Shown piece after piece: positions 55,150 to 64,000 of a DNA stretch of 64,000 nt (position 1 is its first letter; every line of letters begins with the position of its first letter). The position numbers and the translations under genes are program-made. The notes beneath the pieces were generated by a model that saw only the letters and a program-made list of their open reading frames with translations, was not told where the DNA came from and made no database searches. The stretch is from Perlucidibaca aquatica (GTDB taxonomy: Bacteria > Pseudomonadota > Gammaproteobacteria > Pseudomonadales > Moraxellaceae), in NCBI RefSeq assembly GCF_001676655.1, contig NZ_LZDB01000002.1, positions 1,364,001-1,428,000 of the forward strand. Reading direction: 5' to 3'.

Positions 55150-55599
55150 TCAGCCCATACCCGTAGAGCATGCCATCAACAGGGCATCCTCTTTACCTTC
55201 GGGGCCGTCGTAATAATTACGCCGCAAACTGAGCTCGTTATAGCCCAAGGATTGGTAGAGCGAAATCGCCGTGACATTCGATACCCGGACCTCAAGAAAC
55301 CAGATTGTCACGCCGGAAACTAAAACCTCATCCATGAGTTGCCGTAGCAATTCGCGGCCCAAGCCCTTGCCGCGATGCGAGGGGGCAAGGGCGATATCGA
55401 GCAGGTGAGCCTCATCCAGAATGCGCTGCACAAAGGCAAAGCCGATTACCGCGCCATCCTGCTCCAGCACATAGGCCACATGATTTTGCAGCGACTCCTG
55501 CAAGCCTTTCATGGGCCAGGGTGAGGGATGCGACACTTGCTCAATGGCAAAGACCTGCGCGAGGTCATCCGGGGTCATGATGCGAAGCGTGTTTTTCAT
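55150..55599 (-). CDS. rimI: Ribosomal protein S18 alanine N-acetyltransferase
   Basis: A 149-residue GNAT enzyme. LAQVFAIEQVSHPSPWPMKGL is the RimI entry, LLDIALAPSHRGKGLGRELL holds the acetyl-CoA loop (RGKGLG), and EVRVSNVTAISLYQSLGYNEL with RRNYY closes the fold. Overlaps the HolD-like gene by four bases. TsaB is often the neighbour in other species; here it is HolD-like. Confidence 0.95.
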   Translation of the reverse strand: MKNTLRIMTPDDLAQVFAIEQVSHPSPWPMKGLQESLQNHVAYVLEQDGAVIGFAFVQRILDEAHLLDIALAPSHRGKGLGRELLRQLMDEVLVSGVTIWFLEVRVSNVTAISLYQSLGYNELSLRRNYYDGPEGKEDALLMACSTGMG

Positions 55600-56306
55600 G
55601 AGGCTGACTGAGGCTCACTCAATTGCTGCCAAACCTGACGCTTGGCCAGCGGGCTCGCGAGCAACTGCTTTAAGCTAGGCAACAAACGATGTGGGCGCGT
55701 CACAAAAGGCGCCAGGGCCTCGCCAAATACCCACAAACGCACTTGGGGTTGTATCTGCCGCTTCAACCACGCCGACAGCATGTCACGCGCCGTATCAGCA
55801 TCATCCCCTAACAAACCCTTTACGGCGCGAGGCCAAATAAAATCAGGCTCAGCTTCGCCCGGGGTCCACGCCAGTGCGCGCTGAATATTGCGCCAGAGCT
55901 GCTGTTCGGCAGGTGCCAAGTTCAGCACTTCACCGGCAACAACATCTGGAAACTCACCCAAATCGAGCAAGACAAAGCCCTGCTCGCCCAGAGGCATGAG
56001 TCGGCAGGCAAAGCGCGGCACAGGCGTGGCTGGAGTTACAGGCTCAACCACTACCTCCGGCGACGTAGGACGCACCGGCTCTGGGGTTACATCCACTGCT
56101 TTAGGGCGTAGAACCGGATCGGGTAGCACCAATCGACTCACTGGGCTGGCACTGATTGGAGTTGCCGGCACAGGCTCTACCCATCGCTCCACGATCTCGC
56201 TGACAGCCGCGCCGGGCAACACGCGACGCGCTTGGAATAAAGGAATGCCCAGCGCCGCGAGGTATTCGCGACGGCGGCCTTCAGTGAGCGTGGTTTCTGG
56301 CATCAA
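55596..56306 (-). CDS. holD: HolD-like (DNA polymerase III psi subunit) candidate
   Basis: A 236-residue protein. The N-terminus [22 protein letters not shown] aligns with E. coli HolD (RRDWQLQQLGITQWSLRRPG), and the C-terminus with [14 protein letters not shown] aligns with its NPTARAALWQQI. The middle block [20 protein letters not shown] fits the conserved core. A ~55-residue Pro/Val/Thr-rich insert (about 40-95) separates the N-terminal peptide, which in E. coli binds chi (HolC), from the core. The place directly before rimI is the holD locus of E. coli. HolD is fast-evolving, so this is probable rather than certain. It overlaps leuA and rimI by four bases each. Confidence 0.68.
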
Positions 56307-57847: not shown

Positions 57848-58006
57848 CGCACTACTTCCTTAATCCGGTGATGCCCGTGGGCAACAGCCTTCTATTATTC
57901 GCCAGTTTGACTGTACTCGGCCAGCCACAAAAAAGAACGCACCAAGCCCTTCCATCACCGCGAATTATTGGTATTGTGCGCGGCTGTTTTTACACAAGGA
58001 ACGTGC

Positions 58007-58714
58007 ATGAGCCTCCCCCTGCCTTGCGTGGCATACGCAACCACTCCAGAACTGCAATCTCAGGTATTCCGGCTACATGAAGCGCTGCAAAGTGGCGTAC
58101 GTGCCGACCAAGCTAAGCTGGCGACTCGTCTCATTCAGGACGCCGCGCATGAGCTCATCACCACGTTTTTCAGCGAGCTGATCACTCACTTGCAACGGGC
58201 CGGCGATGTGCCTGCTTATCGCGAAGCGGCCAGCATGGTAAGCGAGATTGCCGACAAGCTGACGCACTATCTGGGTTGGGCATCGGCGTTTTTTAGCAAC
58301 GAGCGCATAAAGCCGGCGGTCAGTCATTATCACGCCATGATGCTGCAACGCCCAATGCAGGGCAGCATGCAACCGGTCATCGCATTTGCTATTCCCGCAG
58401 AGCTGGCCCAGCGCTTGGAGCGACTACTGACGCCACTCAGCCAAGGGCAAGCCGCAAGTGCACACGAAGGTATCGAAGCGCTTATCGAGGTCATCGATAT
58501 CGCCCTGCACGCGCTGCTCATCAAGCCTAAGCAGCTGATGAAGTTCAACTTCGTGGTGGACAAGACCCTAAATGGCGTCATTTCCCTCACGCAAACCTTA
58601 TCCTATCGTAGCCTACGCAAAATTGCCGATCAGATGCCCGCAGCGCATCAACCGGTGCTCGCTCAGCACTTGCAGCAATTAGTTCAGACCGCCAGCCAGG
58701 CCCAAGCAGCCTAA
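58007..58714 (+). CDS. Conserved protein of unknown family, paralogue A
   Basis: A 235-residue soluble, mostly helical protein; no signal peptide or membrane segment. I do not recognise it. It is a clear paralogue of the next gene: shared blocks are LPxxA near the start, HYLGW..FFSNER..P.VSHY (about 88-108) and MKFNFVVDKTLNGVIS (about 178-193), with a third, SLRK, after it. ATG 58007 has AAGGA six bases upstream and gives the same N-terminus as the paralogue. It is convergent with B (29 bases between stops). The two share 41 identical bases in the second block. Confidence 0.75.
   Translation: MSLPLPCVAYATTPELQSQVFRLHEALQSGVRADQAKLATRLIQDAAHELITTFFSELITHLQRAGDVPAYREAASMVSEIADKLTHYLGWASAFFSNERIKPAVSHYHAMMLQRPMQGSMQPVIAFAIPAELAQRLERLLTPLSQGQAASAHEGIEALIEVIDIALHALLIKPKQLMKFNFVVDKTLNGVISLTQTLSYRSLRKIADQMPAAHQPVLAQHLQQLVQTASQAQAA
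58538..58578 (+). repeat. 41-bp perfect inverted repeat, left copy
   Basis: Identical in reverse complement to 58871-58911. It encodes MKFNFVVDKTLNG plus two bases in paralogue A. The copies match at every third codon position, including a rare CTA Leu codon, while other conserved blocks of the two genes differ at many silent sites. Confidence 0.95.
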
Positions 58715-58743
58715 GAAAACCGCCTGAGCCGAGCTGTCGCGAC

Positions 58744-59445
58744 TCAGCGCGGCATCTCGCGAAACAGGAAGCTTTCCAGATGATCCGCGACCGGCACGAA
58801 CATCGGTCGCGGCAGGAACTGACCGAGCTTGCGAAGACTGCGATTCGACAGCGCCAAGGTCACTGAAATCACGCCATTTAGGGTCTTGTCCACCACGAAG
58901 TTGAACTTCATGCGCTGCTTTGGCACATAGAGCAACGGCTCCAGCGCCTCATCAATCACGCGTATCAAAATCTCGATGCCGGCCTTGGCATCCGGTGCCG
59001 AACCATCACGCAGCGCATCCAACGAGGCCTTCGCCTCAGCAGCCAACCCGGGGCTGATGCTGAAGGCCAGATGCGCCAGCGGCACACCCTCCACCGGCAG
59101 CGGTGTCATCAGCGAGCGATAATGCGACACCACGGGAGCCAGACGCTCATTGCTGAAGAAGCCAGTAACCCAACCCAAGTAATGACGCAGCTTACCCTTA
59201 ATGTCTTCGACCACCGCCACTGCCTCACGGAACACCGGCGAACCGGGGTCTTTGGCTTGCAGCGAGAGCATGAGCTGACCGAAGAAAGCATCAATTAAAT
59301 CGCAAGATGCTTCGGTGATGAGCTTGCCAGCCAGTTCCGCCTGCGACTCTTTCACGCGTTGCTGCAGTGCGTTATCGAGTGAGGCCACGGCATCGGGTAA
59401 TGAGTCAGAAATACGGCAAGCAATAAACGGAAGAGTTAACGGCAC
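58744..59445 (-). CDS. Conserved protein of unknown family, paralogue B
   Basis: A 233-residue homologue of the preceding gene, on the opposite strand, collinear over its whole length with the same blocks: HYLGWVTGFFSNERLAPVVS and MKFNFVVDKTLNGVIS. I chose GTG 59445 (PLTLPFIACRISDS) since it aligns with the start of paralogue A and AGGT stands eight bases upstream; an in-frame ATG at 59523 would add 26 basic/hydrophobic residues that could look like a signal anchor. Function unknown. Differences from A are concentrated in the last 30 residues and in a two-residue insertion near 70. Confidence 0.72.
   Translation of the reverse strand: MPLTLPFIACRISDSLPDAVASLDNALQQRVKESQAELAGKLITEASCDLIDAFFGQLMLSLQAKDPGSPVFREAVAVVEDIKGKLRHYLGWVTGFFSNERLAPVVSHYRSLMTPLPVEGVPLAHLAFSISPGLAAEAKASLDALRDGSAPDAKAGIEILIRVIDEALEPLLYVPKQRMKFNFVVDKTLNGVISVTLALSNRSLRKLGQFLPRPMFVPVADHLESFLFREMPR
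58871..58911 (-). repeat. 41-bp perfect inverted repeat, right copy
   Basis: Mate of 58538-58578, inside paralogue B; 292 bases separate the copies. Confidence 0.95.
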
Positions 59446-59588
59446 GATAAAATTACCTATGAGCAAAGATAGGACAAACAGTAAACGAATACGCACTCGC
59501 GGGGTACGCTGAGATGACCACAAAAGCAGTCATTACGGCGAATGCCTTGGGCGGCTCACTCGCGGGCACGACCCTTTTGAACGCCCAT

Positions 59589-59617
59589 AAAAAAGCCCGG
59601 AACGAATCCGGGCTTTT
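59589..59617 (-). terminator. intrinsic terminator of groESL
   Basis: On the minus strand AAAAGCCCGG, seven bases, CCGGGCTTTTTT. It begins 25 bases after the groEL stop. The plus strand also ends in TTTT. Confidence 0.87.
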
Positions 59618-59641
59618 CAATACAACCTATCGGTCGCGTTT

Positions 59642-63229: not shown

Positions 63230-64000
63230 ATGAAAATCAAACAACTAGCACTGGCAATCTTTTCCGCCAGCGTTGCAGGAAGCGCACTAGCCGGTGGCTT
63301 CTCACTTTCCGAACAAAGCGTTTCCGCCATGGGCACTGCTAATGCGGGTCGTGCCTCGAATGCGCAAGATGCTTCTGTCGTTTTCAATAACCCAGCCGCG
63401 ATGCATCAACTGAAGCAGGCACAGTTCACGCAAGCCGTCGCGTTTATTGATGCGCAGACGAAGATCAAGAATGTTACCGCTCCGTTTGGCGGAACGAACG
63501 ATGGCGACATGGTGCCGCACACCTTCATTCCTTCCGGCTACTTCACGTCGGGTGACAAGGGTGGCTGGGCCTGGGGACTGGGCGTGTATGGCAGCTTTGG
63601 CTTGAAAACCAATTACGAATCCACGTTTGCAGGACGCCATCTCGGCGATAAAAGCTCCGTCAAAGTCACCACAATTCAGCCGGCGTTCAGCTACCGTATC
63701 AATGACAAGGTCAGTGTCGGTTTCGGCCCGACCATCAATCGTGTTGATGCCTTGCTAACGAAAAACGTCTCCTCTGTGCCAGATATCAGTCCCGCTCCAG
63801 GCGCTCAGCCAGGTACATTGCTCGGCACGAGCTCCCTCGAAGGCGATGACTACGGCTACGGCTACAATCTCGGCATTCACTCCGTATTGGATGAAAACAC
63901 ATCCGTAGGTGTTGTTTATCGCTCCAAGGTCAAATACAAGATTGACGACGGCACACTGACAACGACTGGAACAGGCGCTCCGATTGGCCCAGGTGGCGCC
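63230..64000 (+). CDS. FadL/OmpP1-type outer-membrane transport protein, N-terminal part
   Basis: The gene runs off the window; 257 codons are visible. The signal peptide ends SALA (residue 21) before GGFSLSEQSVSAMGTANAG, then NAQDASVVFNNPAAM: the FadL N-terminal hatch, with the NPA motif. The following strands contain WAWGLGVYGSFGLKTNY. FadL proteins carry long-chain fatty acids or other hydrophobic compounds across the outer membrane. GAGGGA precedes ATG 63230. No clear operator is seen in the 135-bp upstream gap. Confidence 0.92.
   Translation, partial: MKIKQLALAIFSASVAGSALAGGFSLSEQSVSAMGTANAGRASNAQDASVVFNNPAAMHQLKQAQFTQAVAFIDAQTKIKNVTAPFGGTNDGDMVPHTFIPSGYFTSGDKGGWAWGLGVYGSFGLKTNYESTFAGRHLGDKSSVKVTTIQPAFSYRINDKVSVGFGPTINRVDALLTKNVSSVPDISPAPGAQPGTLLGTSSLEGDDYGYGYNLGIHSVLDENTSVGVVYRSKVKYKIDDGTLTTTGTGAPIGPGGA

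Follow-up and report, generated by a model that had tools for sequence, protein, structure and literature searches.

An undescribed family of internally duplicated helical proteins in Pseudomonadales, with a tentative link to acyl-lipid metabolism

Small accessory genes adjoin ws/dgat homologues and encode, for example, an acyl-CoA-binding protein or an SDR (PMC10351704). Some of the genes that we describe here are likewise small accessory genes beside ws/dgat homologues; the available part of that paper mentions no family of their kind.

Phasins (PF05597) and other proteins of lipid or PHA inclusions are another close comparison. They are small, soluble, helical proteins tied to storage lipids, and a gene from a cluster that matches PF05597 is a recurrent neighbor in one orthologous group of our family. 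Unlike phasins, our family is duplicated, with central strands. None of 59 members matched the phasin profile at E ≤ 0.01.

The window that we analyzed is a stretch of 64,000 nucleotides from Perlucidibaca aquatica. It contains two genes, which we call A and B, whose products belong to a soluble, mainly helical family that is undescribed in databases. The features are:

58007..58714, + strand: gene A, two-unit family protein (ORF with ATG start, 235 amino acids, 47% identity to B; AF2 model)
58007..58360, + strand: first repeat unit of A, residues 1–118 (profile comparison, AF2 model)
58265..58306, + strand: block HYLGW..FFSNER of A, first unit, third to fourth helix (ORF and AF2 model)
58361..58711, + strand: second repeat unit of A, residues 119–235 (profile comparison, AF2 model)
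58538..58585, + strand: block MKFNFVVDKTLNGVIS of A, second unit, end of the second helix and start of the third (ORF and AF2 model)
58715..58743, no strand: gap of 29 bases between the stop codons of A and B (ORF coordinates)
58744..59445, − strand: gene B, two-unit family protein (ORF with GTG start, 233 amino acids; AF2 model)
58747..59088, − strand: second repeat unit of B, residues 120–233 (AF2 model, profile comparison)
58864..58911, − strand: block MKFNFVVDKTLNGVIS of B, which holds Lys187 (ORF and AF2 model; Lys187 in 58/62 members)
59089..59445, − strand: first repeat unit of B, residues 1–119 (AF2 model, profile comparison)
59143..59184, − strand: block HYLGW..FFSNER of B, first unit, third to fourth helix (ORF and AF2 model)

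BLASTP aligns A and B with 106 of 227 residues identical (47%), one gap, and E = 4e-64, which is far above chance. This confirms the preliminary description of the two genes as paralogues that lie tail to tail, with 29 bases between the stops. The two conserved blocks that it named also hold up: HYLGW..FFSNER occurs in both proteins, and MKFNFVVDKTLNGVIS is identical in both over 16 residues. Its expectation that A and B are soluble is supported as well, as the highest 19-residue Kyte-Doolittle means are only 1.56 (A) and 1.22 (B), so we expect no membrane helix in either. Among 61 family members, this mean exceeds 1.6 in four, with a maximum of 1.87.

A terminator-like hairpin on the − strand (58724–58747) overlaps the gap between the stops (RNA fold z of −1.19). 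There are two terminator-like sites in the 1.9 kb that we scanned, versus 2.2 expected by chance. By eye, we also saw a GC-rich inverted repeat with a run of T at 59583–59620, between groEL and B, which the terminator scan did not list; it may separate the groEL and B transcripts. The pair is flanked by leuA and groEL, and prfC and a rimI-like gene lie 2.4–2.9 kb away (all named by eye). Between leuA and the rimI-like gene, the − strand encodes a protein of 236 residues (55596–56306) that had no Pfam match at E = 0.001; relatives of this protein are found at four loci of genus members (L032, L033, L034, and L124).

Searches of Pfam, NCBIfam, PHROG, and the PDB gave no match of note for A or B. 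Among 59 diverse members of the family, there was no match to NCBIfam or PHROG at E = 0.001, and Pfam at E ≤ 0.01 gave six unrelated families with one member each and none shared. The view that the family was unrecognized is therefore borne out. In the literature available to us, we recognized nothing as dealing with this family.

We sampled genomes at three taxonomic levels. The order sample, which spans 47 taxonomic families (a number inferred from the labels f1–f47), yielded a match in 68 of 390 genomes; a single genome had as many as nine matches, although some matches are parts of genes. In the class, 6 of 369 genomes were positive, four of them outside the order; the phylum sample gave 7 of 398, none from outside the order. 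The host genome has five copies: A, B, one at C1:116984 that comes after a flavin monooxygenase (PF00743), and a tandem pair at C2:748127 and 748803. The tandem copies (G000:C2:748127-749474, or L065:5125-6478) are very divergent and come after an ABC transporter and queF. This gene order, with one or two family genes, recurs at three other loci (L067, L077, and L079). A member from Acinetobacter, annotated only as a hypothetical protein, has valS on one side and an SDR gene on the other, in the vicinity of adeIJK.

We considered a mobile-element origin and rejected it, as only six plasmid records matched, all from Acinetobacter, and three of these are 3.6–4.1 Mb in size. Two records that are labelled as Acinetobacter phage (CAKLQH020000002.1 and CAKLQF020000003.1) contain a family gene; these may be host contigs.

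Relatives of B in the same genus lie on contigs named Paraperlucidibaca, Perlucidibaca, and Moraxellaceae bacterium UBA2477. A and B are both present in Paraperlucidibaca baekdonensis DSM 26022 (L032). Four genus members (G000, G001, G004, and G005) have both A and B, in convergent orientation, as would be expected if the two proteins formed an obligatory heterodimer. We consider an obligatory heterodimer to be extremely unlikely, for G006 has B without A, G003 lacks B but has an A-like gene, and convergent genes are not co-transcribed. In G006, A is cleanly absent: the DNA from groEL to B is 96.7% identical over 3,054 bases, and the missing stretch corresponds to 57926–58747 of the window, that is, gene A (this locus equals that of the metagenome-assembled UBA2477, so an assembly fault is possible). 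In G003, the A-like gene is between leuA and groEL, and in G002, the contig terminates beside B. The idea that the pair acts as a unit is thus not borne out. Relatives with one copy, which the preliminary description had coupled with decay of the second copy, do exist, but their lone copies are intact and show no decay.

The best explanation is that A and B are alternatives to each other and do not make up a single machine between them; as far as the relatives show, each is separately dispensable. In a phylogenetic tree, there are separate groups for B (88/87) and for A (84/45, which is weak), and a gene from another genus (G012) lies beside both without a resolved position, so the duplication that gave rise to A and B need not be recent.

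Each protein is also duplicated internally. When we cut the alignment of 62 members at B residue 119 and compared the profiles of the two halves, they aligned end to end over 111 columns, with a probability of 99.4 and E = 4.4e-21 (this E value holds for one single comparison). Neither control matched (P of 0.043 with the C-terminal half reversed, and 0.037 for the best of 50 column shuffles). A profile built from C-terminal halves and single units picked up the N-terminal halves of three genes (E from 8.4e-10 to 1.8e-5), and in a second search, those of seven genes including the same three (E from 2.6e-12 to 1.8e-5). This profile did not report the N-terminal halves of three of the five host copies, A and B included, which is a point against our reading.

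Proteins with a single unit were found in all 14 of the f20 genomes that were already positive for the family (they were chosen because the search of the order had scored them positive), and also in four genomes outside the order; G097 has one single-unit match too. Therefore, the family holds both the unit and the fused double. On the evidence of the profiles, each two-unit protein consists of a unit of about 115 amino acids that has been duplicated, a finding that is new here. Judged from sequence comparison, the family arose by duplication and fusion of this unit.

At four of the single-unit loci (L212, L214, L216, and L217, from four f20 genomes), the gene adjoins an alr-type gene, and at two of the four, a FabB-type ketosynthase is a few genes away (both identified by eye).

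The block HYLGW..FFSNER maps to the third helix in the first unit, and MKFNFVVDKTLNGVIS maps to the third helix in the second; given the internal duplication, the 16-residue block corresponds to the HYLGW block. The preliminary description took the strict conservation of the 16-residue block to suggest a binding or catalytic surface. In the alignment of 62 diverse members, the strictness of both blocks is limited to the subfamily of A and B, so this block is a feature of the subfamily and not a family-wide active site. The sole residue that is nearly invariant is the lysine of VVDK (B residue 187), which is present in 58 of 62 members, and the matching position in the first unit (position 73) is lysine or arginine in 41 of 62.

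These two positions would hold the head group if the family were a soluble acyl carrier, with a putative cavity in the duplicated helical bundle where a fatty acyl chain or acyl-CoA would sit before its hand-over to enzymes. The paralogues do adjoin enzymes with differing acyl substrates (see below). Still, the lysine is not always kept in single-unit proteins and is absent from several of them (by eye), and we consider this carrier, which is a narrower form of the lipid-related role that we prefer, to be improbable.

The AF2 models of A (pLDDT 90.5, pTM 0.87) and B (pLDDT 86.7, pTM 0.81) have the same order of elements: a strand, four helices, a strand, and then another strand and four helices. 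Each unit is predicted to be one strand plus four helices, and in both models the units meet via a central strand hairpin. Foldseek found nothing at E ≤ 0.001 for either model in the PDB, or for the model of B among the viral models of BFVD. With VIA-align, the best Z scores were 6.2 for B, with bacterioferritin at the top, and 6.3 for A, with BAR domains and vinculin tail, but for helical proteins, scores of up to 6.3 say little: they are in the range of common helical arrangements and neither assign nor exclude a family.

We compared the family more closely to ferritin-like proteins, whose di-iron ligands are E and ExxH, twice. The model of B aligns to a bacterioferritin (PDB 6k3o) with Z = 6.2 and an rmsd of 4.6 Å over 127 residues, which is in the range for helical bundles; for the model of A, Dps chains scored lower and bacterioferritin was absent among the 50 matches listed. 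Unlike ferritin-like proteins, the family has no conserved ExxH: the columns that are conserved in at least half of the 62 members include no histidine and no ExxH. Similarly, the model of A aligns to BAR-domain proteins (PDB 4i1q, Z = 6.3, 5.7 Å over 111 residues; PDB 1uru, Z = 6.0, 5.7 Å over 112 residues) with the same ambiguity of helical bundles, and we found no sequence similarity to them. A profile search of the PDB with A3 hit two designed proteins, one a helical repeat protein (E = 8e-6 over 45 residues) and the other at E = 0.0019, both of which we discarded as generic helices.

Gene neighborhoods lead us to propose, tentatively, that the family is a non-enzymatic accessory protein of acyl-lipid or neutral-lipid metabolism. 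It would bind either to acyl lipids or to the surface of lipid inclusions and would serve the enzymes encoded nearby, with separate paralogues serving separate enzymes; the neutral lipids in question would be wax esters and triacylglycerols. This proposal is favored by the adjacency of WS/DGAT, which comes right after the family gene, on the same strand, in G205 and G265 (both of one genus), and which precedes a single-unit gene in G693, where the enzyme matches TIGR02946 (E = 1e-114).

Other members are near other lipid-related genes. One group has an acyl-CoA dehydrogenase and an SDR nearby, members from Acinetobacter have an SDR and a SnoaL-like gene, and another group has an acyl-CoA ligase (L107, L118, L120, and L121), a phasin (PF05597), a beta-lactamase-family hydrolase, and a fatty acid desaturase. 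In further groups we found PF10118, an alpha/beta hydrolase, an amine oxidase together with an ABC1 kinase, or a GDSL lipase together with a FabI-type reductase. The flavin monooxygenase before the host's third copy is one more context of this kind. In the host, a gene for an outer membrane transporter of the FadL type (PF03349) begins at 63230, about 4 kb from the A/B pair; an acyl-CoA ligase is next, about 5 kb from the pair and beyond the window (L246), and is followed by an MMPL-type membrane protein on the opposite strand. (The names leuA, groEL, prfC, rimI, cmoA, cmoB, mnmA, hpt, alr, fabB, biotin carboxylase, acyl-CoA dehydrogenase, and, at L107, L118, L120, and L121, acyl-CoA ligase were all assigned to neighbors by eye.)

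Members of the family are also found in contexts that have nothing to do with lipids, including queF, cmoA/cmoB-like, valS, hpt-like, Dus, alr, and leuA/groEL. Because leuA and groEL are the immediate neighbors of A and B, and because the other recurrent neighbors are related to tRNA (queF, cmoA/cmoB-like, valS, and Dus), these contexts argue against a role in lipid metabolism. Could the family be an accessory to translation or tRNA modification? A queF gene (by its NCBIfam match) is directly upstream of the host's tandem copies and of those in three further genomes (L067, L077, and L079); cmoA/cmoB-like, mnmA-like (by eye), valS, and Dus genes are near other members; and prfC and the rimI-like gene are not far from A and B. 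But these are ordinary housekeeping genes, and most of them are bound to one lineage context, so we consider a role in translation or tRNA modification to be very improbable.

More broadly, WS/DGAT (PF03007) is present in 151 of the 390 genomes from the order, and it co-occurs with the family: it is in 65 of 68 genomes with the family versus 86 of 322 others (p = 8e-28). By genus, it is in 19 of 21 versus 40 of 121 (p = 8e-7), which also favors the lipid-related role. By taxonomic family, the difference is not significant (7 of 9 versus 20 of 38, p = 0.16; we counted genera and families by hand), so the association is strongly structured by ancestry, and this counts against the lipid-related role. 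So do the three genomes that have the family and lack WS/DGAT (G057, G068, and G097). Conversely, the f20 genomes G055 and G387 have WS/DGAT and no match to the family.

We also counted acyl-lipid genes, using 14 query proteins, at offsets of one or two genes from family members. They made up 51 of 412 neighbors, versus 17 of 351 in 20 random stretches (one of which was shifted because it overlapped a family locus), and this enrichment favors the lipid-related role. Weighting by the 36 orthologous groups gives 12.7% versus 5.0% (permutation p = 0.047). Because we picked the queries after viewing these neighborhoods, and partly from them, the rate is inflated and the enrichment is suggestive only. 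The gene caller missed the family gene at 13 of 119 loci (L066, L089, L096, L098, L100, L116, L117, L157, L160, L177, L213, L218, and L219), which were dropped from these counts; L066 is the host's third copy, so its flavin monooxygenase is not counted. A tested lipid gene is within two genes of the family gene in 13 of the 36 groups. The other 23 groups have none, which is a further argument against the lipid-related role.

Alternatively, the family might have a general adaptor or regulatory role that is unrelated to lipids, with the lipid-related neighbors and the overlap with WS/DGAT reflecting lineage carriage only. This is a serious possibility, although we would not bet on it. It would account for the loss of significance across taxonomic families, for the marginal result across orthologous groups (including the 23 groups without a tested lipid gene), and for the housekeeping genes (identified by eye) around A and B. 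It does not explain why WS/DGAT is directly adjacent in two lineages, once to the single-unit form, or why different paralogues adjoin different lipid enzymes.

Our proposal of a lipid-related accessory protein can be taken further. This might be the founding family of lipid-inclusion coat or acyl-handling proteins of Pseudomonadales, and its evolutionary history would still be visible: a single unit of about 115 residues works beside wax ester synthase, and the fused, pseudo-two-fold form has multiplied within genomes so that every copy serves an acyl-lipid enzyme of its own. We speculate about this fuller scenario and doubt that all of it is right.

The family occurs widely in the host's order, yet it has had no name, function, or recognized fold, and its single-unit and fused forms illustrate domain duplication clearly. 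If the link to lipids fails, what remains is a further unnamed family whose structure is well predicted. Should the family prove to act in neutral-lipid metabolism, then wax ester and triacylglycerol storage in these bacteria would gain a protein component that has been missing.
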